DNA from: Flammeovirga sp. SJP92
GTDB lineage: Bacteria > Bacteroidota > Bacteroidia > Cytophagales > Flammeovirgaceae
DNA: 64,000 nucleotides
Assembly (NCBI RefSeq): GCF_001583495.1
Contig: NZ_LQAQ01000093.1
Location: 62,001-126,000 of the forward strand
Direction: 5' to 3'
In this document: positions 8,751-60,480 of the stretch, in pieces
Numbering within the stretch: the stretch's first letter is position 1
How the letters are laid out: every line of letters begins with the position of its first letter
Position numbers and translations under genes: made by a program
Notes under the pieces: model-generated
The model's input: the letters and a program-made list of their open reading frames with translations, nothing else
The model's database searches: none
What the model was told of the DNA's origin: nothing

Positions 8751-8870
8751 ATGAACACATTGTTCATTAAAAGCACTGTTTTAAGTATGTATTTTACACT
8801 TAAAACACCCAAACCAGCAGCAAACAAACTCTATAACAGCAAGTTAACTTCTTTTGGCACATGATTAGTA
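8751..8870 (+). promoter_or_regulatory. Enhancer-like inverted repeat and -24/-12 (sigma-54-like) promoter of exported paralog 1
   Basis: An inverted repeat TGAACA-N3-TGTTCA (8752-8766) lies 97 bp upstream of TTGGCAC-N7-AGTA (8854-8870). The GG and the downstream G are exactly 12 bp apart as in sigma-54 promoters, although the -12 element has GT in place of GC. TACACTTAAAA sits 36 bp after the palindrome centre. The same arrangement occurs at 16302-16420 and 60362-60480. Confidence 0.5.
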
Positions 8871-8923
8871 TTATTCTAAGCATCAGACAAAAAAATAATT
8901 GCACTTTAAAATATATAGCTGTT

Positions 8924-9313
8924 ATGAAAACTTTAAAATATTTCTTCGCATTCATCTTCGTAGCACTTGTTTCTTTAAATACAACATTTGCAACTAACAC
9001 AGACAACGAAGACGAGATTACGAAACTAAGAGCTTCAGTAGAAAACGCTGACAATTGGTCTACGTATGCTGATGCAGCAGAAAGATGTATTGAGTTAAAG
9101 ACTAACCTTAGCGAAGCTTACGTATGGTTAGAAACAGCAATTCAGATGGCTCCTAACGCTAGAAACTACGAGTTGAAAGGAGATTATCTAAAACTAAATG
9201 GTGCTAAAGACATGGCTGTAGAAGCTTACAGACAAGCCATTTTGAAAGGATTAAACGACGATACTTTTGACATCCAAAATGTTCAAAAGAAATTGTTGAA
9301 GCTAACAAGATAA
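8924..9313 (+). CDS. Small exported TPR-like helical protein, paralog 1 of 4
   Basis: The start was set at ATG 8924 because it gives a signal peptide (about residues 1-22, ending TTFA) matching the other three paralogs; an upstream in-frame ATG at 8861 would start inside the promoter. The 129-residue product is all-helical in appearance: TNTDNEDEITKLRASVENA, then AAERCIELKTNLSEAYVWLE, then a TPR-like repeat LKGDYLKLNGAKDMAVEAYR. One cysteine lies in AAERCIELK, conserved in all four copies. It resembles the helical C-terminal segment of some DUF2911 proteins, a loose resemblance only. Function unknown; periplasmic location inferred. Confidence 0.75.
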   Translation: MKTLKYFFAFIFVALVSLNTTFATNTDNEDEITKLRASVENADNWSTYADAAERCIELKTNLSEAYVWLETAIQMAPNARNYELKGDYLKLNGAKDMAVEAYRQAILKGLNDDTFDIQNVQKKLLKLTR

Positions 9314-9362
9314 GTAGTTAGCAAAAAGATATAAAATAATTAATTGAATTGAGCTAGTATTA

Positions 9363-9396
9363 AATGCTGTTGGAGCTTTCCGACAGCATTTTTTTG
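9363..9396 (+). terminator. Intrinsic terminator of exported paralog 1
   Basis: Perfect stem AATGCTGT/ACAGCATT (9363-9370, 9383-9390) followed by a T run. Confidence 0.7.
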
Positions 9397-9594
9397 TTTG
9401 TCTATAGTGTGATGATAAATCAGATCAACTATAAATAAAGGTTCACATCAATGATGTTTTATTTGTTACATTGTTTTTCATTTGTAAAACATTGATTCAT
9501 AATTAAATTTATACTTTTTAAAACACTTAAAGTAAGATGACTCTTTTCAAAACTTTTTGACAAGAGATGTTGCGAACTATTATTTTATCAAATC

Positions 9595-12500
9595 ATGAAA
9601 TTAAAATACTTTTTATTTTTGGGATGCTTCATAGTGTTTCATTTCAACTATGCTCAAGAAATCACTAAACTAAATGATGAGCACAATACTTCAACAAACA
9701 ATCTTACAACCGAAGATGGAAGGCTGGAAGAAAATAACTTCCAAAAACAGATTCAAAAAGACTCAGCAGAAATCGATTCAAAAGCACAAAAAATTAAATC
9801 GTTTACTGCAAATGAAAAACATGATCAGATAATATCTTCGTATTATAATGATTTTTTACGAAAAGAACAGTTGAATCATTTTCAATTGAAGTATGGAATA
9901 GATACGATTGATATTTCAAGTAGAGAAAGAGGTACTAACCCAACTAAACTGACTTTCTCTGAAACCAAACTCCCTAATCAACTTACTAATTCATTTATTG
10001 AACATGTAAAATTGGGGAAAGAAAAACTTTTAAAAGATAGACAAAACTGGATTAGAACGCACCTTACGTACAACAGCCAACTATTAGAAGATGAGCAGAA
10101 AGTTTTTAATATCTTATCTGAAGAAAATATAGATATTAATAAAAATGAAGTGATTGGAAAAAGTGGCTCAAGATTACTCATAGAAGATGATATCGTACTT
10201 CTATTTGACTCGACGATCTGGTACAAGATTATTTCTTCAACAGATTCAATCCCAACTCAGAAGATGTATAGAACATTCAATAGTAACAATGATCAAATCT
10301 CTTATCAAAATTATGTACTCGATGAAGAAGATAATTGGTATATCAATGACGAAGCTGCATTTGAGTATAATGACGATGGACAATTAATTAATAGTAATAA
10401 TAAGGCTATTAGAGAAGGAAAGCTTGTTACAGTTTCTATATCAAAATTCACATGGAAAAGTGAATTAGAAGGTATTGAAGAAAGGTATGAATATGACGAT
10501 TTTACTCAACAAATAGAAAAAAAATATAGGAGAGAATTCAAGTATCATAGTCTTTCTAATCCAATCGAAATAAATATTGATTATGAATACAATAGCTTTT
10601 ATGATTTTGATGCAAATTTACAAGAATATTTAGGATCCCTTAAAGATGAATATACTTATGATGATAATAACAACTTAATCTCTAGAAAACATTATTATTG
10701 GAGTAAACAAACTACGGATTGGGTTCTTTCTGATTTTATTGAGTATGAAATAGATAATAATGGCCGACTAATTTCAACAATTGAAAGTTATAGTAATGCA
10801 CTAATTACTAATTTAAAAAAAAGAAATAAAGAGGTCGTCAACTATGATAATAATGGAAATCAAATCTTATATGGACGATATAAATGGAATGAGTCTCAAC
10901 AAGATTGGATAGGTTTACAAAAATCAACATCTGTTTACAATGATCAAAACCAAGTTTTATCAAGAATATATTTCTCTTGGTCATCTGAAAAGAAGAAATT
11001 TATACCAACTAATAAGAATACTTATAATTACACTAATGAAAAGCAAACTTTAGTTGAAAATGAGGTTTATGATCAAATAGATGAGAGCTGGAATAAAAAT
11101 TACAAATATATCTATGCTTTTGATGAAAATGGGTATAACACTAAAATAGAATATTATGTTGGTAACAATAATAATGAATGGAAACTAGTAAGCACCGATA
11201 CTTCTACTTATGATGAAAAAGGACGTTTAATTTCTAAAATTGATTTCCGTGAAGACGAAGGATATCAATTCAATATCAGTTATGATTATACTGATGACAA
11301 TATGACCAAAGAAATTATTCAAGAATGGGATCAAGATCTAGAGAAATGGGTTAATCAACAACAATATTATTATACTACAATAGTTAAAGATAATGCTTCA
11401 ACATGGATGATGAGTGACTGGAATAATGAAAAGGAGCAATGGGAATTTAATCGTAGAATTGATTTAACTTATGATAATGATGGAAATGAAACCTCTAAAA
11501 AAACATATACCGGAGCTATAGATAACTGGGAGAAAAATGGATATACAACTTATGAATATGATGAATATGGTAGTGTAACAAAAAAACAGGAATTTAAACT
11601 AATGGATAATGATTGGTCCAATGAAGCTTATTCTACAGATATTTTTCAATTTGATTATAAAGGTAGAATCCTTTTAGAGGAAAGAATTATTCCATCGAAT
11701 CCAGATATCAGCTATAAATTTGAATATGAATATGCACCTTTTAAGGATTATGAAACCGTTAAAATTCACTTATACGGTCTTCCCAACAACTACACCTCAG
11801 GCAACAAAATAGAACAAAAATATTATAATTCTTATATGCTATATGAGTATATCAATAATTATAAATGGGACGGAAAAGAATGGAAAGGTAATTATAGACA
11901 TGAATATGCTTACAACGATTTAGATAATTTTATATTTAGTAAAACACTATATAATTTTGACGATGAACAAAATATGACTGGAAATCAATATTTCTATAAA
12001 TACGATACCTCCGGAAATACTGTACATAGTCTATCTCAAGAATTCGAAAATAAAAAATGGATCAATGTTTCAGAAAGAGAGTATGAATATAATGAAAACA
12101 ACAATAAAATATTAGAATTATCTTTTTCAAACTGGGATGATGATAAAAAAGAATACACTCAAGGTTATAGAACTACGAATGTATATAATGAAGATAATGA
12201 TTATATTAAAACTACTACACAAAAATATAATAATGGAAGTTGGTCAAACTCGAATAAGAAAGAATATGAATATATAGATAAAAATATATTTAACATTACA
12301 GATTATTCTTATAAAGAGGATTATTGGTTAAAAAATAGTCTGTGGGAGTATAAGTACGATGAAGAGTTATTTATTGAAAAAGAGACTTACCATAATATTA
12401 CTTATGCAGGAGAAACTGAAATATCAACAAAAACAACTGAAAGAATAACCTACTTCGCTTCCCCCAAAAAAAGATCAAGACTGAAAGAATACTATAAAAC

Positions 12501-14250
12501 TCTTTTAAATAGTTCAACTAATATTCACGAAATCTGTAATCAATTTGAAACATTCAGGAGCACTTATAATCTAAAAGAGGAGTTTGATGGTTATGTTACT
12601 CAAGATCATTCTTTATTTATAAAAGAAGACTCTGTAAATAATAATCTTACCTCTAGAACTTACTATTCAAATAATGGTTCATATAATTCTCCTAATTGGG
12701 TTCCTATCGAAAAGTATGAATATGAAAACTCCAACGGAGTCCAATCGGGAATTACTCAATATATTTATAATGGATCTACATTTGATGCCGTCATAAAATA
12801 TAACCAAACCTACTCTGAGGAAGATGAAGTATACACCTTTTTTAAATATGAATACAAAAATGGCGTCTTTGAAAATAAAACTAAGAACGAATATCAGCTA
12901 GACAACGAAAATCAGTATATATTTCTAGCTACATATCATTGGGATAGTACTCATGAAAAATGGAAAGGTTCTTTGAAAAAAGAATATGAACAGTCAGCCA
13001 ATGAGAATTGGTCTTCATACGCTCAATACATTTGGAATTATAAAAGTGATGAATGGATTGGAGAATATAAAAAAGTTGATAAAGGAAATAGAATTGAATA
13101 TGCTGAGTGGGATTTTAATAACAAACGTTGGTTATTTACCCACAGTGAAACAACAACTCAGAAAGGGGAACAAACTATTTATGAAAATGATGTTTGGTTT
13201 AAAAACGAATGGATACCAAACTATAAAACTACAACCTCTGAAATTTCAGGTAAAAAAGTAATAGAAACGTTAAGGTGGATTAATCAAAAATGGAATAAAT
13301 CAGCCAAAATAACTAGCTATAAAAATGTAAATGGTTTTATAGTTACTGAGTCTGCTGAAGGCATTAATGGTGAATGGAAAAATAAATCAAAAGTAATAGA
13401 AATTAAAAATATGTCTGTAGATACACCAAAAAGAGAGGGCTGGCTTACAGAAACAGAATATTTCTATTGGATAGAGCAAGAATGGAAAGAAATTGAAATA
13501 ATAGAAATTCTTAGTGGTCGGGTTGAAAACTTTTATATTGCCTTTTTTGAATTTGATAAAGCCGAAAATAAATATTTACCTTCACATAAATATGATCTAT
13601 CGTATAAATATACATGGAATAACGAGCTTGAAGATTGGCTTGGTATCAGATCAAATTCAAACACAATCTCAAACATTACTAAAAAATGGAACAACGACAC
13701 TCAACAATGGGAACTCTATGAAAGAAAATCAGACTTCTACTCTCCTGTCATTACTTTCAATATCCCAGAGTCCATTCCATTTAATCTAACAAACCCTACT
13801 TATACATTGGATATTGTCACTACTGCACCTGGCTTGAGTGTCACATCTTCTGTTGAATCAGTTGAGTTCGATGGTTTAGAATTAAAGTACAAAGAGAGTG
13901 GTGTCGTTGATTTAGTGATATCTACTCCTGCAGGGGTCACCTCTGATGGAACTCCTTATACTGCCCGTGAGTTGAATACAAGTTTCACTATTGAGGAAGC
14001 TTTGAGTATTGATGATGTTGTTTTAGAATCTCAAATTATTGCTTACCCTAACCCTGCTTCAGATTTTGTAAAAATAATGGCACCTTCTGGAACTGTTATT
14101 TCATCTATTGAAGTGATTACAAACCAAGGAGCTAAAATAGATACTATAAATGCTTCTATCATTGATGTGAGAGGATACAGTAATGGTATATATTTTTTAA
14201 GAATAAATACCAACAAAGGAATCATCTCAAAACCATTTATTGTAAAATAA
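9595..14250 (+). CDS. Giant secreted repeat protein with T9SS sorting tail (1551 residues)
   Basis: A signal peptide (about 1-20, ending NYAQ) leads into roughly 1,250 residues of degenerate repeats, about 40 residues each, built around a tryptophan turn and tyrosine-rich strands (W...W...YEYNENNN, TYDDNGN). These look like YD/RHS-type or MORN-type beta repeats. An Ig-like segment follows at about 1380-1470, then a type A T9SS C-terminal domain (about 1480-1551) with the signature YPNPASDFVKI and ending KPFIVK. It should be exported across the outer membrane by T9SS and anchored or released. It is very rich in Asn, Lys and Tyr. No enzyme motif is seen; adhesion or a structural role is a guess. 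Confidence 0.75.
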   Translation: MKLKYFLFLGCFIVFHFNYAQEITKLNDEHNTSTNNLTTEDGRLEENNFQKQIQKDSAEIDSKAQKIKSFTANEKHDQIISSYYNDFLRKEQLNHFQLKYGIDTIDISSRERGTNPTKLTFSETKLPNQLTNSFIEHVKLGKEKLLKDRQNWIRTHLTYNSQLLEDEQKVFNILSEENIDINKNEVIGKSGSRLLIEDDIVLLFDSTIWYKIISSTDSIPTQKMYRTFNSNNDQISYQNYVLDEEDNWYINDEAAFEYNDDGQLINSNNKAIREGKLVTVSISKFTWKSELEGIEERYEYDDFTQQIEKKYRREFKYHSLSNPIEINIDYEYNSFYDFDANLQEYLGSLKDEYTYDDNNNLISRKHYYWSKQTTDWVLSDFIEYEIDNNGRLISTIESYSNALITNLKKRNKEVVNYDNNGNQILYGRYKWNESQQDWIGLQKSTSVYNDQNQVLSRIYFSWSSEKKKFIPTNKNTYNYTNEKQTLVENEVYDQIDESWNKNYKYIYAFDENGYNTKIEYYVGNNNNEWKLVSTDTSTYDEKGRLISKIDFREDEGYQFNISYDYTDDNMTKEIIQEWDQDLEKWVNQQQYYYTTIVKDNASTWMMSDWNNEKEQWEFNRRIDLTYDNDGNETSKKTYTGAIDNWEKNGYTTYEYDEYGSVTKKQEFKLMDNDWSNEAYSTDIFQFDYKGRILLEERIIPSNPDISYKFEYEYAPFKDYETVKIHLYGLPNNYTSGNKIEQKYYNSYMLYEYINNYKWDGKEWKGNYRHEYAYNDLDNFIFSKTLYNFDDEQNMTGNQYFYKYDTSGNTVHSLSQEFENKKWINVSEREYEYNENNNKILELSFSNWDDDKKEYTQGYRTTNVYNEDNDYIKTTTQKYNNGSWSNSNKKEYEYIDKNIFNITDYSYKEDYWLKNSLWEYKYDEELFIEKETYHNITYAGETEISTKTTERITYFASPKKRSRLKEYYKTLLNSSTNIHEICNQFETFRSTYNLKEEFDGYVTQDHSLFIKEDSVNNNLTSRTYYSNNGSYNSPNWVPIEKYEYENSNGVQSGITQYIYNGSTFDAVIKYNQTYSEEDEVYTFFKYEYKNGVFENKTKNEYQLDNENQYIFLATYHWDSTHEKWKGSLKKEYEQSANENWSSYAQYIWNYKSDEWIGEYKKVDKGNRIEYAEWDFNNKRWLFTHSETTTQKGEQTIYENDVWFKNEWIPNYKTTTSEISGKKVIETLRWINQKWNKSAKITSYKNVNGFIVTESAEGINGEWKNKSKVIEIKNMSVDTPKREGWLTETEYFYWIEQEWKEIEIIEILSGRVENFYIAFFEFDKAENKYLPSHKYDLSYKYTWNNELEDWLGIRSNSNTISNITKKWNNDTQQWELYERKSDFYSPVITFNIPESIPFNLTNPTYTLDIVTTAPGLSVTSSVESVEFDGLELKYKESGVVDLVISTPAGVTSDGTPYTARELNTSFTIEEALSIDDVVLESQIIAYPNPASDFVKIMAPSGTVISSIEVITNQGAKIDTINASIIDVRGYSNGIYFLRINTNKGIISKPFIVK

Positions 14251-14273
14251 GGTTTTGATATTTCTCTAGTTTA

Positions 14274-14316
14274 AAAAAGTTCGATTGGATGTTTTTCAAT
14301 CGAACTTTTTCTTTTT
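14274..14316 (+). terminator. Intrinsic terminator of the giant repeat protein
   Basis: 14-bp stem AAAAAGTTCGATTG/CAATCGAACTTTTT with a 9-nt loop, then a further T-rich tail. Confidence 0.75.
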
Positions 14317-14331
14317 AAATATGAAATGCTC

Positions 14332-14575
14332 TGTAAACTAAATTTTCGTTATTTATTACATTTAGAAATCAGGAGATTTCTGATGATTTGAAGGGCACGA
14401 ATGACGCTTAACATTCGCGCCAGTGGGTAGGAGTGGAATTTAGATTTTGACTTCTAAGCCTAGATTTTTTGCTTCGTTTTTCATCAATGGAAAAATGAAG
14501 AGGAAGTAAGCTTGGAAGTAGAACATAAAAAGCTTGTAAAAATGTCGATTGAAAGTTGACAATGATTTAGTTTAG
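14332..14575 (+). mobile_element. MITE-like composite element, short copy (with REP-A at its left end)
   Basis: The left end is TGTAAACTAAATTTTCG; the right end ends TTTAGTTTAGAG, roughly its inverted repeat. The interior holds a REP-A copy (14363-14422) followed by a shortened form of the body seen in full at 46807-47188, including TTTTTTGCTTCGTTTTT. No ORF. The rest of the gap, to 14740, is AT-rich promoter sequence. Confidence 0.55.
14363..14422 (+). repeat. REP-A copy
   Basis: Stem 1 AGAAATC/GATTTCT and stem 2 CGAATG/CATTCG. The usual CGC is missing between the stem 2 arms, shortening the loop. Confidence 0.7.
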
Positions 14576-14739
14576 AGAGTAATACTAACATTTCATAAAA
14601 TATAGAGTAAAAACCACACTTAAACCTTAACAAGTCTTATTTAACCAACTGATTAACAGAAATTAAATATACATTTTCAACTTTTAAATGAACATGACCG
14701 TGTATATAATCGAAATAAAAACACTAAAATTATACAGTC

Positions 14740-15138
14740 ATGAAATCATTAAAACACACTTTAGTTATCGCATTAATTGCTACATTTTCAGTGGGTTCTT
14801 TATTTGCAGGTCCTGCAGACAATGAAGATATTGAAATTAAATTATTGCGTGAATCGGTTGAGAATGCTTCTGCTAATGATTGGGCGGCCTACTCAAAAGC
14901 AGCTGAAAGATGTATTCAGATGCAGAGTAATTTGAGTGAGGCATATGTGTGGATTGAAAAATCTATTGAAATTGATGAAAATAGTGCAACTTTAGAAGTG
15001 AAGGGAGATTACCTCGCTTTAAATGGATTAAAAGATATGGCGATTGAAACCTATAATAAAGCAATTTTGGAAGGAATGTCTGAAGGAAAAGATATTGAAA
15101 AATTGCAATGGAAAGTTTTAAAGTTATCACGCCGTTAG
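14740..15138 (+). CDS. Small exported TPR-like helical protein, paralog 2 of 4
   Basis: This 132-residue protein has a signal peptide ending near LFAGPAD (about 24), then the family core: DNEDIEIKLLRESVENA, AAERCIQMQSNLSEAYVWIE and the TPR-like VKGDYLALNGLKDMAIETYN, ending KLSRR. It is about as close to paralogs 3 and 4 as to 1. Unlike them it lacks the TTGGCA -24 element upstream and has only a half site (TGAACATGACCG, 14689-14700) 40 bp before the start, so it is probably under different control. A strong terminator follows at 15162. Function unknown. Confidence 0.75.
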   Translation: MKSLKHTLVIALIATFSVGSLFAGPADNEDIEIKLLRESVENASANDWAAYSKAAERCIQMQSNLSEAYVWIEKSIEIDENSATLEVKGDYLALNGLKDMAIETYNKAILEGMSEGKDIEKLQWKVLKLSRR

Positions 15139-15161
15139 AATATTATAAAAATATAAAATTA

Positions 15162-15195
15162 CAGCCTTCAGGAATTTAAACTGAAGGCTTTTTTT
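15162..15195 (+). terminator. Intrinsic terminator of exported paralog 2
   Basis: Stem AGCCTTCAG/CTGAAGGCT followed by seven T. The same stem is reused after paralogs 3 and 4. Confidence 0.75.
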
Positions 15196-15215
15196 GTTCT
15201 CAATAACCGCTATTA

Positions 15216-15791
15216 TTATTCGAATATTAACTGCTTATTGGTTGGAATAATTTCAAACAACTCATCCCAGTAGTATTCATTCCATAGGAAAGACAATGTT
15301 TCATTTCTCAAATCTGGAATATCATTGTCTCCTTGCGTCATAAGGCTCAGGATTGCTACTTCGCTTTGGTCATCAAAAATGACACTCATAGTTTCTCCTT
15401 TCACTCCTCTATGGTCTGCATCTATTAGCGTATGATTCAATTCATGAGCCAGTAACTTTAATCCTACTCCATAATCAATATCAAAAGAACGACGCTGCAT
15501 TTCTCTCCATACTTTTGAATTGTTGTAAACGGTCAGCTTACGGCAATAAAAGCAAGCTTTGGCCAATACTTCCGGATCATTGCTTTCTTCCACAAAAACA
15601 TCAATGGATTTGTGATGTAAAAGTATTCCTCTTTTGGAAGCCTCTTCTAGATATTTGTCTACATAAGGTTTCAATAGCACTGCTTCATCGCTGTTGTAAC
15701 GGACCTCTAAATCTTCAGGTGCTACGTTAAAATCAATCAGGCTACAAGAAGCCAATAACAGAGATAATAGGGTGTAGATAGTAGTTTTCAT
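15216..15791 (-). CDS. Putative zinc metallopeptidase lipoprotein
   Basis: The start was placed at ATG 15789-15791 because it gives a clean lipoprotein signal MKTTIYTLLSLLLASCSLID (lipobox LASC, cysteine 16); the longer frame back to 16010 adds 73 residues without signal-like character. The 191-residue product contains the zinc-binding HExxH as LLAHELNHTLID (about residues 121-132) in the order seen in gluzincin-like putative zinc-binding metallopeptidases of Bacteroidota. CFYCRKLTVY supplies a cysteine pair. It should be an exported, lipid-anchored protease. Substrate unknown; the third zinc ligand could not be fixed. Confidence 0.6.
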   Translation of the reverse strand: MKTTIYTLLSLLLASCSLIDFNVAPEDLEVRYNSDEAVLLKPYVDKYLEEASKRGILLHHKSIDVFVEESNDPEVLAKACFYCRKLTVYNNSKVWREMQRRSFDIDYGVGLKLLAHELNHTLIDADHRGVKGETMSVIFDDQSEVAILSLMTQGDNDIPDLRNETLSFLWNEYYWDELFEIIPTNKQLIFE

Positions 15792-16301
15792 TTCACGTGT
15801 CGAGTTAGTTGTTGTATAGGGTAAACCTTTTACTTTGTGTATATAAACACTCCATGTAAGGACTTGTTTAAAAATATAATTAAAAAAAGTCAGAAAAGCT
15901 TGAAATCTGACATTTTTCAGAGCACTGCAATCCATTTTAATCTCCTCTTTTTTGAAGGATGAAATGGTCAATTCATAGTCAAATTTGATGCATTTTTCAA
16001 AAGCGTACACTTTACATTAATAAAAAACGAACATCATAAACAATTAATGATTTGATAAAAAATATTGATATAAAAAATTAATATTTACACATTTACTAAA
16101 AAAACACTCTATTAATTATAAATTTAATAATTATCATCTTTTCTTTTTAATAAGTGGTAAAAAAGGAAGGAAGAGCCAAAACCACTCACAGAATAATAAC
16201 AACGTATTTTACATATAAATCAAAATATAATTTCAAACAAATGTAAATAAACAACTTAGAACAGAATTATATTTCGATAAATTCATTAAAAATGACCGTT
16301 T

Positions 16302-16420
16302 ATGAACATATTGTTCAAATATGAAATAAAAATTATGTATAAAATACACTTAAAAATACAAAACAACGACATAAACAACTAATTAGCAACAAGTTAACCA
16401 ATCTTGGCAAGCCTTTAGTA
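16302..16420 (+). promoter_or_regulatory. Enhancer-like inverted repeat and -24/-12 promoter of exported paralog 3
   Basis: TGAACA-N3-TGTTCA (16303-16317) is followed by TACACTTAAAA 35 bp from its centre and by TTGGCAAG-N6-AGTA (16404-16420), 96 bp from the centre. The GG-to-G spacing is 12 bp and the start codon lies 54 bp downstream. The flanking AT-rich region from about 16030 is homologous to that before paralog 4. Confidence 0.5.
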
Positions 16421-16471
16421 TATAGTAAAGCATAATTCAATGATACAAGAAAACACAAAACATATATAGTC

Positions 16472-16870
16472 ATGAAATCTTTAAAACAACTTCTAGTTCT
16501 AGCGTTATTTGCAATCATCACTGTAAATCCTACATTCGCTAATCCGACTGATAACGAAGATAACGAGATTGACAAATTGCGTGCAGCTGTTGAAAATGCA
16601 ACAGCTACTGACTGGGCTGCTTATGCTAACGCTGCTGACAGATGTATTGAATTGAAAACAAACTTAAGCGAGGCTTATGTGTGGATTGAAAAATCAATCG
16701 CAATCAATGAGAACGCTGAAAACTTAGAGATAAAAGGTGATTACTTAGCATTAAATGGTGCTAACGAAATGGCCATCGAAACATATAACAAAGCGATCTT
16801 GGCAGGCATGTTTGCTGGAGAAGACGTTTCTAAATTACAGAAAAAAGTATTGAAATTGAATCGTCGCTAA
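16472..16870 (+). CDS. Small exported TPR-like helical protein, paralog 3 of 4
   Basis: This 132-residue protein has a signal peptide (about 1-23, ending TFA) and the family core DNEDNEIDKLRAAVENA, AADRCIELKTNLSEAYVWIE, IKGDYLALNGANEMAIETYN and a basic end KLNRR. It is the closest relative of paralog 4 at 60531; both share signal peptide, upstream region and terminator stem, which marks a recent duplication. The conserved cysteine is in AADRCIELK. Expression probably uses the enhancer-type promoter at 16302-16420. Function unknown. Confidence 0.8.
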   Translation: MKSLKQLLVLALFAIITVNPTFANPTDNEDNEIDKLRAAVENATATDWAAYANAADRCIELKTNLSEAYVWIEKSIAINENAENLEIKGDYLALNGANEMAIETYNKAILAGMFAGEDVSKLQKKVLKLNRR

Positions 16871-16917
16871 GGTATCGCTATCACATATTAATTATACTAA
16901 CACGAACGATAGATCAG

Positions 16918-16947
16918 GCCTTCAAGTGAGAACTTGGAGGCTTTTTT
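16918..16947 (+). terminator. Intrinsic terminator of exported paralog 3
   Basis: Stem GCCTTCAAGT/ACTTGGAGGC with one G-T pair, followed by six T. Confidence 0.7.
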
Positions 16948-17065
16948 ATGTCTAAAAGCTACTATAACAAAGTATAGACTATATTTCATACTTTTTTAAG
17001 AATTCAAGATTAATCTAGTATATTGTCATACAAATTAAATAAAATATAAAACTAAATTCATTTAA

Positions 17066-51697: not shown

Positions 51698-51762
51698 GCG
51701 CGAATGTTAAGCGACAGCGTCATTCGTGTCCTAAGGATCATCAGAAATCTCCTGATTTCTAA
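51698..51762 (-). repeat. REP-A copy, variant A, pairing with variant B
   Basis: CGAATG/CATTCG and AGAAATC/GATTTCT. Its end provides the stop codon of the DUF89 gene. Confidence 0.75.
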
Positions 51763-52901: not shown

Positions 52902-53022
52902 TTTATCAAAATTATAAGTCTTTCTACACAATCCTGCTATTCAAAAGCAATAAGGGTGTAAAGATAGCCTTATTGCAGTTTTTGCGAAACGAATTCTATA
53001 TAATATGACGAATGTTTTTCGT

Positions 53023-53089
53023 TAGAAGTCGGAGACTTCTTGTGATCTTTGAAGCACAAATGACGCTGTCGCTTAACATTTGCGCTAGG
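53023..53089 (+). repeat. REP-A copy, variant B
   Basis: AGAAGTC/GACTTCT and CAAATG/CATTTG. Head-to-head with 53106. Confidence 0.75.
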
Positions 53090-53105
53090 GGAATGTACTC
53101 CCTCA

Positions 53106-53172
53106 ATGGCGCGAATGTTAAGCGACAGCGTCATTCGTGTCCTATGAATCATCAGAAATCTCCTGATTTCTA
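53106..53172 (-). repeat. REP-A copy, variant A
   Basis: CGAATG/CATTCG and AGAAATC/GATTTCT. It ends 12 bp from the AraC stop codon. Confidence 0.75.
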
Positions 53173-53183
53173 AAAAAAGCCAA

Positions 53184-54047
53184 CTACGCCGTCTGTAAAT
53201 CTGCCAATGACTTTCTAAAATCGGAAGGGGTTAGGCCTTTGAATTTTTTGAACTGACGGTTGAAATTTGACAGGTTATTGAAACCGCATTCGTAGCAGAT
53301 TTCGGCTATGTTTTTATTTGAATTGATCAGGAAGAAGGCGGCTTTGCCTAATCGGATATCGTTAAGGAATTTGATAAAGCTTTTGCCTGTTCTTTTTTTG
53401 AAGAAATGACTGAAAGCGGAATCACTCATATTGATCAAAAGCGCTGCCTCTTTGACGTCAATTGGGCGGTGGTAGTTTTCAAATATAAACTCCAAAACCT
53501 TGTTGATTCTTCGGCTTGTCTCTTGTGGATGCACGCCGATGAAACCATCAGAAGCTAGTGATCTTGTTTCTTGACTAATACCGAGTTGATGTAAAAGGTT
53601 GAAGAATAATATTACTCTTTCGAAGCCCGAACTGATCACGAGGTCTTTTAATATCAGCTTGATTCTATAGCGGTCTGTTCCTTCAAAAACGACGCCTTTA
53701 CCTGAGTTGGAAAAGAGGGTTCTGATACTTTCAAATTCATTTTTCTTTAATAAAGAATCTGAAATAATACTTCTTTTAAACTGTAAAGTAGTCACACATG
53801 GTTTGTCTGTAGATCCCTCTTCTTTCATCCATTTATGCTGAATGTTGGGGCCTAAAAACACTAAATCTTCCTGCTCATAATTTTCCACGGAATTGCCTAC
53901 AATCCTTCGTCCGTTACAACCTTCCACTAGGGTCAGTTCAAAATCATCATGCAGGTGAATAGGGTAATCAAAGTCTGCATTCAAATGATGTTGTAAGACA
54001 AATAGATTTTCGTCACTTACCGGTGTTATTTCTGGAAAAACCTTCAT
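53184..54047 (-). CDS. AraC family regulator of the carbohydrate locus
   Basis: The 287-residue protein has an N-terminal cupin (about 15-140; HLHDDFELTLVEGCNGRRIV, FLGPNIQHKW) and a C-terminal AraC double HTH (about 180-280; VKEAALLINMSDSAFSHFFK, IAEICYECGFNNLSNFNRQF, GLTPSDFRK). This is the sugar-sensing type of AraC regulator. It starts 30 bp after the stop of the sodium/solute symporter on the same strand, so the two are probably cotranscribed and the regulator likely senses a sugar or mannobiose brought in by that symporter. It is the only local candidate to control the locus. Confidence 0.85.
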   Translation of the reverse strand: MKVFPEITPVSDENLFVLQHHLNADFDYPIHLHDDFELTLVEGCNGRRIVGNSVENYEQEDLVFLGPNIQHKWMKEEGSTDKPCVTTLQFKRSIISDSLLKKNEFESIRTLFSNSGKGVVFEGTDRYRIKLILKDLVISSGFERVILFFNLLHQLGISQETRSLASDGFIGVHPQETSRRINKVLEFIFENYHRPIDVKEAALLINMSDSAFSHFFKKRTGKSFIKFLNDIRLGKAAFFLINSNKNIAEICYECGFNNLSNFNRQFKKFKGLTPSDFRKSLADLQTA

Positions 54048-54077
54048 GAGCTATATTGTTGTTTACTTTATTCTAAT

Positions 54078-55703
54078 CTAAATAAATATGACAAAAGAAA
54101 GAATAGCTAAGATTGCTAAAATTATGGCTTGCACTCTAAAGTTATGATACCATTTGCTATTTTTCAATTCTTTGGTCTCTTCATGCCATATTTCTGTTGT
54201 CCATAGGTTGCCTTTTAATTGTAATGTAGAAGGGGCTTTGGTACTTACGGAAGCGATCACACAAACTGCCACACTGATAGATACTAGAATCGGTACCATC
54301 AATAAGAAGTGGACGTCTGCTAAGAATGTTTTGTCTTTGAAAAGTAATAAACCTACAGCTGTAATGGCTCCTACTAATAATGTAGCAAAGGCTCCGTTGG
54401 CATTGGCACGCTTCCAGAATAAGCCCAAGAAGAAAATGGTCACAATTGGAGGTGCCAAGTAAGAGGCCATTTCTTGATAGTAATCTACTAGTGAGCCGAA
54501 CTTCTGGATATTTGGTGCCCATACTGCGGCAATGATCAAGATGGTTACCGAAATTACTTGTCCTACTTTTACTAGCTTTTCTTTTGAGGTGTTAGGGAAT
54601 GCATTGGAGTAAAAGTCCATTGTCAATAAGGTAGAGGCCGAATTGATGGAAGCAGATAAGGTAGAAGTCAATGCTGAAATCATAGCGGCCATGATAATTC
54701 CCATCAAGCCTACGGGCATTAAACTCATGATCAGTCTTGGATAAATCTCATTGACGTCTACTAGGTTTGTGACTTCATTACCAAACATGGATAGGGGAAC
54801 TTCTACTTCAAAAAGATTCATCAAACGAGCGCACAAGCCTGGGAAAATGAAGATGAATAATGTAAAGATATAGAGGAAACCTACAAATAAAACGCCTTTA
54901 CGTCCGTCTTCAATTGATTTTGCAGATAGCACTCTTTGTACCATCACTTGATTGTTTCCCCAGAAATAAAAACCGAGTATTGGAATACCTAAAATAATAC
55001 CTAACCAAGGGGTGGTGGCATCGTCCATTGGTCGAACTAAATGTAACCACATTCCATCACTGAAGCGGTCCATCAGTACATCCCAACCGCCAATTTCTGC
55101 AAAGGCTAAATATGAAAGGATAACAGAACCGATGATCAAAATAACGGCTTGTACTAATTCGGCATTGATGGCTGAAGATAATCCTCCAAAAATGGTATAC
55201 GAGCCTGCAATAATGGCCATGATATAAATGACTGTAGAAAGATCTGCTTCTGGGAAAATCAATCGGATAATCAATGCTCCCGAATATAATGCGGCGGCGG
55301 CATCTAAAAATACATTACCAATAATGGTGATGATAGAGAAGAAGGTCTTCGGTCTTTTGTCGTATCTTTTTTCCAAAAATTCAGGCATGGTATACACTCC
55401 TGACTTGATATAAAAAGGAAGAAAGAACATGGCAAAAAAGATCATTACCAAAATGGAAACCCATTGGTAATTGAAAACGGCTAACCCTGTTTTAAAGCCT
55501 TCGGCGGATTGGCCGATTAATGTAGTGGACGAAACCGAAGCGGCAAACAAAGATAAGCCCACTGCTTTCCATGACATATTTCTTCCTGCAAGAAAATAAG
55601 ATTCTGAATCCGAATTATTTGCATTTTTGAAAGCCCAGAAAAGTATGATTACGATATAAACAACAACAAAGCATAAGTCTATGTTGCTCATTTGGAAGTC
55701 CAT
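54078..55703 (-). CDS. Sodium/solute symporter (SSS family, sugar type)
   Basis: The 541-residue inner-membrane protein has 13-14 predicted hydrophobic segments and SSS signatures: SESYFLAGRNMSWKAVGLSL near the N terminus, the conserved SVSSTTLIGQSAEGFKTG in helix 2 and the middle GIIMAAMISALTSTLSASIN. Family members couple sodium entry to uptake of sugars or sugar derivatives. With an AraC gene 30 bp downstream and GH130 upstream, transport of mannose or mannobiose after breakdown in the periplasm is the natural guess. A -7 box lies at 55771-55778. Confidence 0.9.
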   Translation of the reverse strand: MDFQMSNIDLCFVVVYIVIILFWAFKNANNSDSESYFLAGRNMSWKAVGLSLFAASVSSTTLIGQSAEGFKTGLAVFNYQWVSILVMIFFAMFFLPFYIKSGVYTMPEFLEKRYDKRPKTFFSIITIIGNVFLDAAAALYSGALIIRLIFPEADLSTVIYIMAIIAGSYTIFGGLSSAINAELVQAVILIIGSVILSYLAFAEIGGWDVLMDRFSDGMWLHLVRPMDDATTPWLGIILGIPILGFYFWGNNQVMVQRVLSAKSIEDGRKGVLFVGFLYIFTLFIFIFPGLCARLMNLFEVEVPLSMFGNEVTNLVDVNEIYPRLIMSLMPVGLMGIIMAAMISALTSTLSASINSASTLLTMDFYSNAFPNTSKEKLVKVGQVISVTILIIAAVWAPNIQKFGSLVDYYQEMASYLAPPIVTIFFLGLFWKRANANGAFATLLVGAITAVGLLLFKDKTFLADVHFLLMVPILVSISVAVCVIASVSTKAPSTLQLKGNLWTTEIWHEETKELKNSKWYHNFRVQAIILAILAILSFVIFI

Positions 55704-55770
55704 AAGTTTTAATTTAAATCTGTATATTTCATTTCATATAATTAGCAAGGCACGGTCATTTTTACCTTGG

Positions 55771-55778
55771 CAAAAGTA
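55771..55778 (-). promoter_or_regulatory. -7 promoter box of the symporter-araC operon
   Basis: TACTTTTG matches TAnnTTTG and lies 68 bp upstream of the symporter start. Confidence 0.5.
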
Positions 55779-55804
55779 GTTGTGGTTTTAGGATCGTTCA
55801 GTGG

Positions 55805-56126
55805 ACATTTCTACAAGCTTTCTTTGATTCACTTCCAAGCTTCCTTCTTCTTCATTTTTGTCTTGAAACAAAAACGAAGCAAAAAATTCAAGGCTTAGAA
55901 GTCAAAAGCTAAATTTCATTCCTTTCGCCTAAATGATTTTAAACTCGCTAAAGCTCAAACAGTAAAATCATTTTTAACGGCTCAATCCATAAAATTCTTA
56001 ACGCTTTTCCCTTCAAGGCCGGGAGAGCACTACCAAACGATTAGGGTAGTCTTCCAATGGCGCGAATGTTAAGCGTAAGCGTCATTCGTGACCTATAGAT
56101 CATCAGAAATCTCCCGATTTCTAAAT
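55805..56126 (-). mobile_element. MITE-like composite element, reverse-oriented copy
   Basis: The body matches the reverse complement of 46807-47188 over about 250 bp, with the REP-A copy (56057-56123) at its outer end. Terminal inverted repeats are no longer clear. It fills most of the gap between the symporter and GH130. Confidence 0.55.
56057..56123 (-). repeat. REP-A copy
   Basis: Variant A: CGAATG/CATTCG around TTAAGCGTAAGCGT, stem 1 AGAAATC/GATTTCT. Confidence 0.75.
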
Positions 56127-56239
56127 ACCATTCTTGGTTCACAATCTAATTAAGGAATAGTATCACCTGAAACTGAACTTTAGTGATGTCTTCCGACTTA
56201 ACACTTACGATATAGAAATCATAAAAAAATCATTTCTTA

Positions 56240-56272
56240 AAAAAATTAAGGCCCCAGTTGAAACGGGACCCT
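56240..56272 (-). terminator. Intrinsic terminator of the GH130 gene
   Basis: On the minus strand stem AGGGTCCC/GGGGCCTT (with G-T pairs) is followed by an AT-rich T tract. It is 10 bp beyond the stop. Confidence 0.65.
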
Positions 56273-56282
56273 AATTAACACA

Positions 56283-57317
56283 TTAATCCATTACCAAAGT
56301 AGTTTCTTTCGTATTATCCTTAATGAAAGCTACTAGCTCATGGATATCGCAAGTCGCTACACCACAATATTGATCACTACCGCCATAATAAATGTACAGT
56401 GTGTCATCAACTAAAACATTTCCAGTTGGGAAGACCACGCCCCACTTATAAAGACCGCTTTTTTCCCAGTCTTCTTCAGGTTCCATGATGAAATCTTTGG
56501 TTCTGTACAAGATCTTTGTAGGATCTTCTAAGTCCAACAGGCAAGCTCCAACTCTATAGCAGTTATCCTTGTCCACACCATGATAAAGCATCACCCATCC
56601 TTCGTCCGTTTTCACAGGAGGAGTGTTGCCACCTACTTTCACTTCCCACCATTCTTCACCTTTTAATAGTAAGTCAGATTCATGCTTCCAATTGACCATA
56701 TCATCAGAAGATTGAATCCAGATTGCAGGGTATTCCGTACCATACTCCTCACCGATCCACTCTTTCGGGCGGTGTAGCATATAGTATTTGTCATTGATTT
56801 TTTCAGGGAAAATAATCACATCACGGTCATCCAATTCAGGTTTTGTGATTCTTCCTACCCTACGGAAATTCTTTAAGTCTTTAGAAATTGCTAAGCCCGT
56901 ATTGGCAATGTTTTTCTTTAATAGTTCCGGATGGAATTCATCCATTTCAGGAGCCACAACAGCATCATAACTGTATTTCCAATATTGTCCTGGAGGAAAT
57001 GCTCTGTACGCATAAGTGATATAGAAAGTATCACCAAATTTCACAATCCTTGGATCTTCCACACATCCTGAGTCAGGTCCATCTTCTGAAGGAGAAAAAA
57101 CCGGTTGATCTTGCACTCTTTTGAAGTTGAAACCATCTTCACTTTCAGCAAGACCAAAATAGATCTTATGGTCAAAATCATCTCCTGCAGCACGATACAT
57201 CATGTAAAATTTCCCCTCTTCATACCATGCACCTGGGTTACAAACCACTAAGTTTTCCCACTCGTTAGATGCATGTGGAGATAAAATTGGATTTCCTTCA
57301 AATTTTGTAAGCTTCAT
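56283..57317 (-). CDS. GH130 beta-mannoside phosphorylase
   Basis: The 344-residue protein has no signal peptide, so it acts in the cytoplasm. It is a five-bladed propeller with GH130 blocks: FEGNPILSPHASNEWENLVV, CNPGAWYEEGKFYMMYRA, DSGCVEDPRIVKFGDTFYIT (catalytic Asp) and VMLYHGVD near the end. GH130 enzymes split beta-1,4-mannosyl bonds with phosphate, releasing mannose 1-phosphate from mannosyl-glucose or mannooligosaccharides; which substrate cannot be decided from sequence. Together with the GH5 mannanase it makes the case for a beta-mannan pathway. It is divergent from the second DUF5060 hydrolase, with shared 13-mer sites between. Confidence 0.85.
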   Translation of the reverse strand: MKLTKFEGNPILSPHASNEWENLVVCNPGAWYEEGKFYMMYRAAGDDFDHKIYFGLAESEDGFNFKRVQDQPVFSPSEDGPDSGCVEDPRIVKFGDTFYITYAYRAFPPGQYWKYSYDAVVAPEMDEFHPELLKKNIANTGLAISKDLKNFRRVGRITKPELDDRDVIIFPEKINDKYYMLHRPKEWIGEEYGTEYPAIWIQSSDDMVNWKHESDLLLKGEEWWEVKVGGNTPPVKTDEGWVMLYHGVDKDNCYRVGACLLDLEDPTKILYRTKDFIMEPEEDWEKSGLYKWGVVFPTGNVLVDDTLYIYYGGSDQYCGVATCDIHELVAFIKDNTKETTLVMD

Positions 57318-57431
57318 GTTTCTTTAGGTTTAAGAGCTTATACAGTTGAAGAAATAAAACTTCAAGTAAATCTTATTCATTTCATTTCATCATCTGTTCA
57401 GATATAAAAAAGATTGACGACGACATGAATA

Positions 57432-57439
57432 CAAATGTA
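57432..57439 (-). promoter_or_regulatory. -7 promoter box of the GH130 gene
   Basis: TACATTTG matches TAnnTTTG and implies a leader of about 110 nt. Confidence 0.45.
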
Positions 57440-57481
57440 GAGGGGGGAGATGATGCAATCTTATAGGATAAAACGCAATAA

Positions 57482-57579
57482 TGATACTTTTTTGAAATTG
57501 TTAATATAAATACATTGCAATATGCTCTAAAAAGTATCTATTGATGATATAAATTCGTGCAATATTCAAAAAAGTATCA
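57482..57579. promoter_or_regulatory. Cluster of three GATACTTTTT motifs between divergent genes
   Basis: TGATACTTTTTTGAA on the plus strand (57482-57496) and its exact reverse complement (57565-57579) flank a third, weaker copy (57525-57538, minus strand). The two minus-strand copies share a following ATATTGCA. The cluster lies upstream of both GH130 and the hydrolase at 57702, suggesting shared control. Confidence 0.4.
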
Positions 57580-57701
57580 TGTTGTAACACAAAAGTAGTA
57601 GTGCAGACCCTATCTCCTATCTACCTTTACAACCGTACTAATGCAAAACAAACATTACTTTTTGTACGGGTACTTAATCTTTCATTTAATGAGTATGATA
57701 T

Positions 57702-59690
57702 ATGAAATTTTTACAGCTATTCATTTTTTTATTCTTAGCACTTCAGCTTCACATATTTGCTTCTACTGTTCAGCCTGAAATTTTAGAGGTCAACACTGAA
57801 AACACTACTATTAATACTTTTGATAAGTTTGAAGCACTTGTAAAAGTAAAGGCAGACTTTGAAAATCCTTACGATCCTCAACATATAGATGTAAGTGCAT
57901 CGATCACATTACCTGATGCGAGCACTATTAATTATCCTCTTTTCTTTTTAGAAGGTGATAGTGATAACTCTACTTGGGGATTAAGAATCGCTCCTAGAAC
58001 TTCAGGAGAATATACTTATACTATTACTGTTGTAACCGATGAGCAAAGTACAACATCCACTTCTTTCACTTTTAATGCCACAGAAAGTGAGAATCCAGGT
58101 TTCCTTCATACTGTTGACAAAAACTACAACAACTTGGTTTTTGATAATGGTGATGGTTTCAGAGGTTTTGGTTTGAATATGGGTTGGGAAGCTAGAAACA
58201 GCGAAAACCCAAAGTATACTTATGACTTCTGGTTTGATTTATTAGCATCACATCAAATCAACTTTGTAAGAACTTGGTTGAATGTACCTTGGAACTTACC
58301 GATTGAATGGAACAAAGTCGGTTCAGACCGATACAATGATTATAATGGCGTGGGCTACCACCCTGAAGGTTTGGCACGTATTGAATACATGATCGATGAA
58401 GCCGAAAAAAATGATCTGTATTTAATGCTGGCGATGGATTTCCATGGTGCACTTTGGGTCAATAATAATGACGGATGGGGAAATAATGTATGGAAAGATC
58501 ACCCTTACCAACAATTAGCTGGATGTGTAAATCCTAACGACTTTTTCACTTTTGAAGAAGCAAGAAGACTTTATAAAAACAGATTAAGATACATCGTAGC
58601 ACGTTGGGGGTACTCTACTTCGGTAGGTGCTATTGAATTTTTCAATGAAGTCGATAACACAATTATCTATGATGGTCAAAATGTAAATCCTGCTGATGTA
58701 GTAGAATGGCATGATATCATGAGTAAGTATTTGAAATCGATCGATTATCATGAGCATATTGTTACGACAAGTATCAGTCATAATACCGTGAATGGTCTTT
58801 TTGATGTTCAGGAATTAGACCTAATTCAGTCTCACCTTTATGGTTCTGTAGGCGGTATGGCTCAAAAAATTCAAGAGCTAACCAATAAGCATCAAAAACC
58901 TTATGTAGTCGGTGAAATGGGCTTGGACTTTATGCCTCCTAATAATAATGATGAAGCCAAGTGGATTAAAGATTTACAGAAAACAATGTGGTTGGGCATG
59001 TTTGAAAAAACATCAATCATTCCTATGACATGGTGGTGGGAAAACTATGAGGTTTGGAATGCTTACGACAAGTTTGAATTCTTAGCTGAATTTACGGAGA
59101 AAATGACGACAAAGAGTGACAGCGAAATTGCAGAGCTATCATTAGTCAACAGTGAAGACCTTGAAGGACAAGGAATGGTGCTCAGAAACAGACATGGCTA
59201 TGCCTTTATTCATGGAAAGGGACAAAGACTCAGAAACATCACTTTCCAAATTGATGGCCTTCCTCGTGATGAATACACTTTCTATGTCTACAATGCCTAC
59301 ACTTATGAAGAAAAAGACAGAGTGGATGTTACGGCGAGTAACTCTGGCAAGTTTTACATCGAAATCAATGAAATAAACTCAAATGAAGATATAGTACTCT
59401 ATTTTGAAAATAAAAGAGGTGATGTGACTAGTATTGATGATCAATTTAAAAATATCAACTGGAAACTATACCCTAACCCTGCTCAATCAAAGTTGAACTA
59501 CGCCATTGAGGACATGTTCAATCCTGCTAATGCTCAATTTTTCATTTATGATATGAATGGCAAATTAATGCAACAGTCTCCTCTTTCTAAAAGTGAAAGT
59601 ATCAATATTGAAAGCTTGCCGAAAGGTGTTTATGTTTTCAAAATTGTAACGGATGAAAGAGAAGACCACAAGGTGTTTATTAAGCAATAG
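57702..59690 (+). CDS. Secreted DUF5060/GH5-like glycoside hydrolase with T9SS tail
   Basis: The 662-residue protein has a signal peptide (1-20), a DUF5060 sandwich (about 25-130), a (beta/alpha)8 hydrolase domain (about 145-480), a small sandwich (about 485-560) and a T9SS tail (about 590-662, YPNPAQSKLNYAIED). Glu316 in GAIEFFNEVDN is the acid/base and Glu405 in YVVGEMGLDF the nucleophile. Its catalytic part is closely related to that at 19514, but it lacks the N-terminal CBM-like and FN3 modules. The two genes sit at opposite edges of the locus. Extracellular mannan cleavage is inferred from context. Confidence 0.85.
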   Translation: MKFLQLFIFLFLALQLHIFASTVQPEILEVNTENTTINTFDKFEALVKVKADFENPYDPQHIDVSASITLPDASTINYPLFFLEGDSDNSTWGLRIAPRTSGEYTYTITVVTDEQSTTSTSFTFNATESENPGFLHTVDKNYNNLVFDNGDGFRGFGLNMGWEARNSENPKYTYDFWFDLLASHQINFVRTWLNVPWNLPIEWNKVGSDRYNDYNGVGYHPEGLARIEYMIDEAEKNDLYLMLAMDFHGALWVNNNDGWGNNVWKDHPYQQLAGCVNPNDFFTFEEARRLYKNRLRYIVARWGYSTSVGAIEFFNEVDNTIIYDGQNVNPADVVEWHDIMSKYLKSIDYHEHIVTTSISHNTVNGLFDVQELDLIQSHLYGSVGGMAQKIQELTNKHQKPYVVGEMGLDFMPPNNNDEAKWIKDLQKTMWLGMFEKTSIIPMTWWWENYEVWNAYDKFEFLAEFTEKMTTKSDSEIAELSLVNSEDLEGQGMVLRNRHGYAFIHGKGQRLRNITFQIDGLPRDEYTFYVYNAYTYEEKDRVDVTASNSGKFYIEINEINSNEDIVLYFENKRGDVTSIDDQFKNINWKLYPNPAQSKLNYAIEDMFNPANAQFFIYDMNGKLMQQSPLSKSESINIESLPKGVYVFKIVTDEREDHKVFIKQ

Positions 59691-59791
59691 ATTTTAACAA
59701 TCATGGGTTTGTCTGCTCAACGATTCTATGCTCAATTTCAAACTTTATTTAGGTTTGGGATTGGGCATTTTTTATCTCCTAATTTTTTTTA

Positions 59792-59911
59792 GTGGTTCTG
59801 AAGCCACAAGGCATTGTGGCTCTACAAAAAACGATAACCTTTCAATTAAGTAATTCATTAAATTGAAAGATTACCCCTGTAGAGACGCAATGCCTTGCGT
59901 CTCACGAACCA
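59792..59911. repeat. REP-B nested palindromic element
   Basis: Hairpins AGCCACAA/TTGTGGCT and GAGACGCAA/TTGCGTCTC inside the outer repeat TGGTTC/GAACCA. Confidence 0.7.
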
Positions 59912-59937
59912 AAAAACGAAACATTTTTCCTCACTTG

Positions 59938-60000
59938 ATGGAATGTTAAGTGATAACATCATTCGTACTTAAAAGATCAACAGAAATCTCCCGGTTTCTG
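59938..60000 (-). repeat. Degenerate REP-A copy
   Basis: Stem 2 GAATG/CATTC around TTAAGTGATAACAT; stem 1 AGAAATC/GGTTTCT with one mismatch. From 60001 to 60361 the DNA is AT-rich and homologous to the region before paralog 3. Confidence 0.55.
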
Positions 60001-60361
60001 ACTAACATAAATACTTAATAAGTCAGTATAATGAACACCCTATTTCCATCATTTCTCAAAAACGTACACCTTACGTTAATTTTATATGAAGCTGGCATGC
60101 ATTTAATAATATCTAAAATATAAACTTAAAAAACGATGAATTTTTACAGTATTATAAATTTACGCAGTGATTTTTTACGAAAATAATAAATAACATCTAT
60201 TCTCCTTTAAAAGACTTTAAACAGGATGGCTAATAAGACACCCTTTACAGAATAAAATCAACGTGTTTAATATGAATTAAAAAATATAATTCTAAATAAA
60301 TGTAAATAAATATTCTATTTCAGAATTATATTTTGAAAAATTCCATAAAAAGTGACCGTTT

Positions 60362-60480
60362 ATGGACAAGTTGTTCAAATATGTAATAAAAACTATGTAT
60401 GATTTACACTTAAAAACCTAAAATTGACACACAACTAATTGATTTACAGATTTTTATTAATTTTTGGCAAGCCTTTAGTA
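60362..60480 (+). promoter_or_regulatory. Enhancer-like inverted repeat and -24/-12 promoter of exported paralog 4
   Basis: TGGACA-N3-TGTTCA (60363-60377, one mismatch), TACACTTAAAA 35 bp from its centre, and TTGGCAAG-N6-AGTA (60464-60480) 96 bp from it, with the GG-to-G spacing again 12 bp. The start codon lies 53 bp downstream. Confidence 0.5.

Follow-up and report, generated by a model that had tools for sequence, protein, structure and literature searches.

Sequence evidence for a predicted sigma-54 regulon of small, putatively exported TPR-like proteins in Flammeovirga, with a candidate activator and a candidate small RNA

What do three related genes of the marine bacterium Flammeovirga sp. 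SJP92 share upstream of their start codons, and which regulator could make use of it? The genes lie in a stretch of 64,000 nt (contig NZ_LQAQ01000093.1, positions 62,001-126,000, from a genome of 8,491,641 bases), referred to below as the window, and a preliminary description had suggested that each of them is preceded by a sigma-54 promoter with an upstream activator site. Judging from the sequence comparisons reported here, the three are very probably sigma-54 promoters of a single regulon, driven by a two-component response regulator that we call the L009 type and having a family of small, predicted exported TPR proteins as its targets. More specifically, the regulator would bind half-sites arranged as YGTNCR-N4-YGNACR, often together with another half-site, on one face of the DNA and about 60 to 115 bp upstream of the -24 element. 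A HU/IHF-like protein would bend the DNA at a conserved site beside -24, and the regulator, presumably under the control of phosphorylation, would then contact the sigma-54 polymerase at GG-N10-G[CTA]. The same dyad probably lets the L009-type regulator control its own gene as well, and the regulator may also activate a conserved small RNA (sRNA) of about 107 nt.

Four paralogous genes are found in the window, and GG-N10-GT plus an upstream inverted repeat stands before three of them (copies 1, 3 and 4). The features are the following:

8742..8757, + strand: copy 1, putative enhancer dyad CGTACG-TTTA-TGAACA (YGTNCR-N4-YGNACR), score 15.4 with a matrix trained on another genus
8752..8766, + strand: copy 1, inverted repeat TGAACA-N3-TGTTCA, exact, half-sites 2 and 3 of the array
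8795..8804, + strand: copy 1, TACACTTAAA block, specific to the paralog group
8829..8847, + strand: copy 1, IHF-like region beside -24, partial match to the conserved positions of the promoter alignment
8854..8870, + strand: copy 1, predicted sigma-54 -24/-12 element TTGGCA-N7-AGTA (GG-N10-GT)
8924..9313, + strand: copy 1, gene for a predicted exported TPR-like protein of 129 aa
14740..15138, + strand: copy 2, paralog gene, 132 aa, with neither dyad nor -24/-12 (a natural negative control)
16293..16308, + strand: copy 3, putative enhancer dyad TGACCG-TTTA-TGAACA, left half-site degenerate
16303..16317, + strand: copy 3, inverted repeat TGAACA-N3-TGTTCA, exact
16345..16354, + strand: copy 3, TACACTTAAA block
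16379..16397, + strand: copy 3, IHF-like region, partial match
16404..16420, + strand: copy 3, predicted sigma-54 -24/-12 element TTGGCA-N7-AGTA
16472..16870, + strand: copy 3, gene for a predicted exported TPR-like protein of 132 aa
60353..60368, + strand: copy 4, putative enhancer dyad TGACCG-TTTA-TGGACA, left half-site degenerate
60363..60377, + strand: copy 4, inverted repeat TGGACA-N3-TGTTCA, one mismatch
60405..60414, + strand: copy 4, TACACTTAAA block
60439..60457, + strand: copy 4, IHF-like region, partial match
60464..60480, + strand: copy 4, predicted sigma-54 -24/-12 element TTGGCA-N7-AGTA
60531..60929, + strand: copy 4, gene for a predicted exported TPR-like protein of 132 aa

The promoter architecture noted at the three genes is real, is beyond chance and reaches far past the window. 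The inverted repeat that had been ascribed to all three genes is exact at copies 1 and 3 and carries one mismatch at copy 4. The TTGGCA...AGTA element had been described accurately, the first G of GG standing 12 bp from the -12 G in each case, as had the conserved block that keeps its place (TACACTTAAA, at 8795, 16345 and 60405); the search pattern proposed alongside them, TTGGCA-N10-AGTA, has to be amended to a spacing of N7 (equivalent to GG-N10-GT). Upstream of copy 2 (14740) neither a dyad nor GG-N10-GN is present. A whole-genome search for the combined pattern, as had been suggested, recovers its exact form at two sites only, both of them window genes (copy 4 being mismatched). The 8.49 Mb genome contains three occurrences of TTGGCA-N5-TTAGTAT, all at copies 1, 3 and 4 (a reversed control pattern occurs twice), and the exact TGAACA-N3-TGTTCA is found in five places genome-wide, two of which are window promoters. 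At the other three the best downstream sigma-54 score is 5.1 or less, and the other genomic copies of the exact palindromes were dismissed as further regulon members, as they have no good sigma-54 site downstream and several look coding by eye. If up to two mismatches are allowed, the repeat shows no excess within the window itself (7 found versus 6.6 expected in shuffles), and the weight therefore falls on the exact copies and on the combination.

The assignment of the -24/-12 elements was examined in 81 of the 99 family matches (70 of 75 in Flammeovirga, 11 of 24 in others), leaving out matches in longer frames, the interrupted frame G005:C1:81618, G002:C11:385 and G001:C1:200928. An element GG-N10-G[CTA] is present in 61 of these 81 upstreams (with a matrix partly tuned on the family), and in 51 of the 61 promoters the T of TGGCA stands 63-75 bp before the start codon. 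The same layout thus precedes most of the examined family members in nine Flammeovirga genomes and in other genera. When upstreams of uncalled open frames of at least 200 aa, taken from the stretches around regulators and family genes, were used as 239 controls, the element was found at -60..-76 in 51 of 70 Flammeovirga family upstreams versus 1 of 239 controls, and at -20..-190 in 53 of 70 versus 18 of 239, in a test that was not blind, the -24/-12 weights having been extended to GC/GT/GA once the family was known. The gene rpoN, on whose presence in the genome the preliminary description had made its reading depend, was found and encodes the activator-interacting, core-binding and DNA-binding domains of sigma-54. 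With rpoN present and the GG-N10-G spacing kept across paralogs, species and genera, the proposal of sigma-54 promoters with an upstream activator site gains sequence-level support, and we infer that the family elements are sigma-54 promoters dependent on RpoN.

The upstream site itself needed redefinition. Half-sites of the form YGTYCR/YGRACR occur in 41 of 42 non-redundant promoters, where they cluster at about -73, -83, -93, -103 and -113 from the T of TGGCA, with a vector strength of 0.82 at a period of 10-10.2 bp (97 half-sites from related sequences, so that the value is descriptive). If the palindrome TGAACA-N3-TGTTCA is written F-N3-R, this is the pair seen most often in the window's group, 23 times in 28 upstreams, and R-N4-F is the most frequent one in the remaining 53 upstreams (also 23 pairs). 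The window copies show the array R-N4-F-N3-R, in which an extra left half-site (CGTACG or the degenerate TGACCG) precedes the palindrome. After the counts of half-site spacing and the cross-genus matrix, the palindrome was replaced by the N4 dyad as the likely binding unit: an upstream site is present, as the preliminary description had it, and its core is YGTNCR-N4-YGNACR within an array of three half-sites.

A symmetric dyad matrix was trained on six of the seven promoters of G012, a genome of another genus. At a score of at least 9 it picks out 63 of 70 Flammeovirga family upstreams versus 6 of 239 controls, again not blindly, the six training dyads having been chosen via a relaxed form of the Flammeovirga half-site. 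By their coordinates, two of the three best-scoring controls are family sites seen from the opposite strand, and the third is the upstream of the regulator itself. Copy 2 and its counterpart in G004 lack both the dyad and -24/-12 and retain CACACTTAAA; this joint absence fits a functional link between the two elements. According to a passage of a review, enhancer sites lie about 100-150 bp upstream and IHF is a frequent aid to looping (PMC7057263).

A candidate for the activator emerges from the regulator genes of the same genome. PF00158 proteins are represented there by eight strong and seven weaker matches; all eight regulator genes were examined only in the window's own genome, and Pfam domains were assigned for L004, L005, L008 and L009, not for L006, L007, L010 and L011. 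The L009-type gene (G000:C83:18895-20283) encodes a PF00072 receiver, a PF00158 AAA+ domain and a PF02954 Fis-type helix-turn-helix (HTH), and the product of the next gene, which overlaps it, has a histidine-kinase ATPase domain. In a set of 62 regulator genes, which is not exhaustive, is rich in L005 relatives and missed at least one G012 regulator (C9:26713, L195), and whose L009-type loci were chosen after L009 had become the candidate, the dyad lies upstream of 11 of 19 L009-type genes versus 0 of 43 other regulator genes, with 0.0014 expected per upstream from shuffles. These 11 genes come from all nine Flammeovirga genomes plus G009 and G027, and their matrix scores are 12.7-18.9, the next best regulator reaching 8.9. 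In Flammeovirga the dyad stands at -91 or at about -44 from the start codon, and the two distances suggest that it was kept while its context changed. Furthermore, the L009 type was found in all 13 genomes that supplied family promoters, and in G018 the gene starts about 3.2 kb from a family gene. It is this association, with the dyad and with the genomes bearing the family, that points to the L009-type protein as the putative cognate activator.

Another enhancer-binding protein, for instance of the L005 or L008 type, might bind the array of a sigma-54 promoter instead, which we regard as improbable. The L005 gene appears to form an operon with genes for a TPR lipoprotein and an Hpt protein, and a lone half-site is found upstream of it; these neighbours had made it a candidate, which was rejected, as G012 and G018, both bearing the family, hold no close relative (matches to the L005 protein there do not exceed 39% identity) and no dyad lies upstream of it. 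L008-like matches were seen only in Flammeovirga, by eye and among the matches listed, Pfam HTH_8 is found in L009 and L004 and not in L005 or L008, and none of the 43 non-L009 regulator genes examined carries the dyad. As a separate observation, the L005 and L008 types are related enhancer-binding regulators, each beside a small Hpt-domain gene (L134:8738-11287 and L137:8992-10655, - strand), and the L005 gene also follows a TPR lipoprotein gene.

The dyad recurs at a place unrelated to the family. At C19:68378, within a non-coding stretch, there is a strong dyad followed by a GG-N10-GC element, the distance to the base that precedes GG being 72 bp; the gene that comes after the stretch looks like one for uracil phosphoribosyltransferase. 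The feature behind these elements is:

G000:C19, about 68475-68581 (L134:15476-15582), + strand: candidate sRNA of about 107 nt, behind the dyad and GG-N10-GC

Nine of nine Flammeovirga genomes conserve the dyad, another half-site 20 bp upstream, GG-N10-GC and an RNA-like segment downstream. The segment, which would be transcribed, extends 103-110 nt from the presumed start and comprises a 5' hairpin, a near-invariant AU-rich core and a terminator hairpin with a T-run; the 5' hairpin differs in sequence among the genomes, and each of the nine sequences was folded singly, the copy of the window's genome giving a folding z-score of -3.2 (on 104 nt). RNAalifold on a MAFFT alignment of the segments detected no covariation, the 5' hairpins not being in register there, an Rfam search with the segment gave no match above threshold, and the segment was not found in the examined regions of G009 and G010. 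A reading of the TTGGCA at this locus as -24 was discarded, since an invariant GG lies twelve bases upstream in the alignment and TTGGCA there holds the GC of -12. Pairing of the sRNA with the family leaders was likewise abandoned, as these rank only 149th to 828th of 903. The best predicted target is a 1361-aa protein with a hydrophobic N-terminus (C61:85301, L279, - strand), in whose leader 19 nt immediately ahead of the start codon are an exact antisense match to the sRNA core; by duplex energy the pairing is not significant, 8 of 60 shuffled seeds reaching -25.0 or lower.

Between the dyad and -24 further blocks are conserved. Over 42 promoters, ungapped from -24, the consensus aacTga..a.CA...a.TTA is obtained and is partly visible in each group, and the exact WATCARNNNNTTR is present in 18 of 61 promoters, always at the same position, with about 0.7 expected over the whole 70-bp region from shuffles; the window copies match WATCARNNNNTTR in part only. 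One HU/IHF-family gene was found, and a protein of this family may bend the promoter here, while TGATWATCA would be an alternative reading of the bases of the IHF-like site. Conservation of the block TACACTTAAA extends over the window's paralog group, and the form CACACTTAAA has been retained even in copies without their former sigma-54 elements. In the other paralog group (G000:C93:570183, for example) a conserved AGTGTCAAATTAATT leader element stands near the expected transcription start; it is also seen in G010 and there once upstream of the L009-type regulator gene.

The family itself is narrowly distributed. Copies 1-3 share 61-83% protein identity with the copy at 60531, copies 3 and 4 being 83% identical; ten matches are found in the window's genome and seven to ten in each of nine Flammeovirga genomes. 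All eight loci retrieved by protein name are from Flammeovirga, the one of F. aprica being 100% identical to copy 4. With a broader profile and at most 14 candidates scored per genome, matches at E <= 1e-10 turn up in 4 of 295 genomes sampled from the class, the window's genome included, and in the other three the matches lie within longer frames. The proteins have a hydrophobic N-terminus that resembles a signal peptide (judged by eye), and their export is presumed. The AlphaFold2 model of copy 4 (predicted local distance difference test, pLDDT, 88) has helices from 25 to 131, a profile search matches engineered and natural TPR chains, Foldseek TPR matches reach a best E-value of 0.019 with none at 0.001, and Pfam TPR matches are below cut-off; a compact TPR fold of antiparallel helix pairs is predicted. 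The large neighbours of the paralogs (window 9595-14250 and 57702-59690) carry type IX secretion C-terminal sorting domains (PF18962).

Beyond the two tests that were not blind, several observations weigh against a single sigma-54 regulon under an L009-type regulator. The related sequences are not independent samples, and copies 3 and 4 have a degenerate left half-site. At -12, 27 of the 61 promoters have GA, 22 have GT, as the window copies do, and only 12 have GC. Of the 81 homolog upstreams, 20 fall under the -24/-12 threshold; when 18 of these were re-examined (the two others being fragments without a start), 10 had a dyad score of at least 10 and some a weaker GG-N10-GN, so that these upstreams have either a differing -24/-12 or a decayed promoter. 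The loop reads GAFTDA, not GAFTGA, in all 19 L009-type proteins; 8 of the 19 genes have no upstream dyad, and some genomes in which no family member was found have L009-type regulators as well. An excerpt on loop variants counts GAFTDA among those that would maintain activation, with DVU2106 as a case (PMC4641369). Taken by itself, the strict dyad shows no genome-wide enrichment (11 sites versus 14 for the reversed control), five of the 11 sites being family promoters and one lying at the regulator gene. The half-site plus -24/-12 pattern gives 35 rows genome-wide versus 14 in the control direction; seven rows are at six family genes, and the 28 non-family rows stand against those 14. A scan with the dyad and -24/-12 matrices covered 1.64 of 8.49 Mb, including 444 kb chosen around regulators and family genes and therefore all ten paralogs by design; its top nine rows are family promoters, representing 8 of the 10 paralogs, and the dyad in row ten belongs to the L009-type regulator itself.

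The composition of -12 bears on another explanation, namely that an alternative (ECF-type or housekeeping) sigma factor reads TTGGCA...AGTA and that the spacing is coincidental or due to shared descent. The rarity of GC at -12 speaks for it, and the preliminary description had thought an alternative sigma possible for the same reason. However, close homologs of the window genes have GC in place of GT (in G002, G007 and G008), so that no such factor is needed, and G012 has GC in 6 of 7 promoters; different genera share the GG-N10-G spacing, GG-N10-GC is retained in nine of nine genomes at the sRNA promoter, which has the same dyad, and the dyad itself suggests an enhancer-binding protein, whose class acts together with sigma-54. 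This explanation is thus very unlikely. In an excerpt of a 2025 survey the consensus is TGGCAC-N5-7-TTGCT and E. coli promoters departing from it are listed (PMC12316311).

Equally doubtful is the idea that the inverted repeat is a repressor operator, on a sigma-54 or other promoter. The dyad before the regulator gene lies within about 27-93 bp of the start codon, and the best sigma-54-like scores near it in the window's genome fall inside the gene, which would fit repression there; the family and sRNA sites, on the other hand, stand about 60-115 bp upstream of -24 and on a helical grid, where a sigma-54 activator is expected according to the same review passage (PMC7057263). That the blocks are a mere footprint of recent gene duplication, as the 83% identity of copies 3 and 4 might suggest, deserves next to no credence, since the elements persist amid diverged flanks, even in other genera and in homologs with as little as about 30% protein identity, both copies that lack the dyad are also devoid of -24/-12, the dyad recurs at the regulator gene and the sRNA, and the cross-genus matrix test largely contradicts it.

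The sigma-54 regulon under an L009-type regulator resembles NtrC/AtoC-type regulons in its AAA+ and Fis-type HTH response regulator with an adjoining histidine-kinase gene, and in a dyad upstream of GG-N10-G promoters with a putative IHF-like site between. It differs from them in its targets, which are narrowly distributed small TPR proteins, predicted to be exported, and a candidate sRNA, in a -12 that is often GT or GA and in the loop GAFTDA. For none of the 25 NCBIfam families shown does the regulator reach the curated cut-off; the best match, TIGR02915 (PEP-CTERM-box response regulator), is similar over the full length at 414.7 bits, under the family cut-off of 502.6 bits. LuxO-Qrr and GlrR-GlmY are known systems with sigma-54-driven small RNAs. 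As in these, an RNA of about 100 nt that ends in a terminator appears to be driven by a response regulator of the sigma-54 enhancer-binding class, but the Flammeovirga RNA is a predicted one, is from another phylum and has no Rfam match over threshold. Literature searches found no paper combining Flammeovirga and sigma-54, or small RNA, sigma54 and Bacteroidota; for Flammeovirga and small RNA only an Argonaute paper, judged by its title, was returned. Sigma-54 in Bacteroidota as such is already in print, as an excerpt attests (PMC12316311), and a passage in Francke et al. 2011 connects sigma-54 with the bacterial exterior (PMC3162934), which fits a family that would be exported.

The system is of a known kind, to which the Flammeovirga regulon, the activator predicted for it and the small RNA seem to add new members. 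A sigma-54 regulon of Flammeovirga is made concrete and testable, with a predicted activator, a binding site and targets that include a conserved candidate small RNA. Since -12 reads GC, GT or GA in this TPR family, scans with a strict consensus would miss such promoters. An uncharacterised and repeatedly duplicated family of putatively exported proteins would be tied to one signalling pathway. The chances seem about even that a single enhancer-binding protein in Flammeovirga runs a secreted TPR family, itself and a Qrr-like sRNA, a circuit that would join sigma-54 and post-transcriptional control of surface or secreted proteins.

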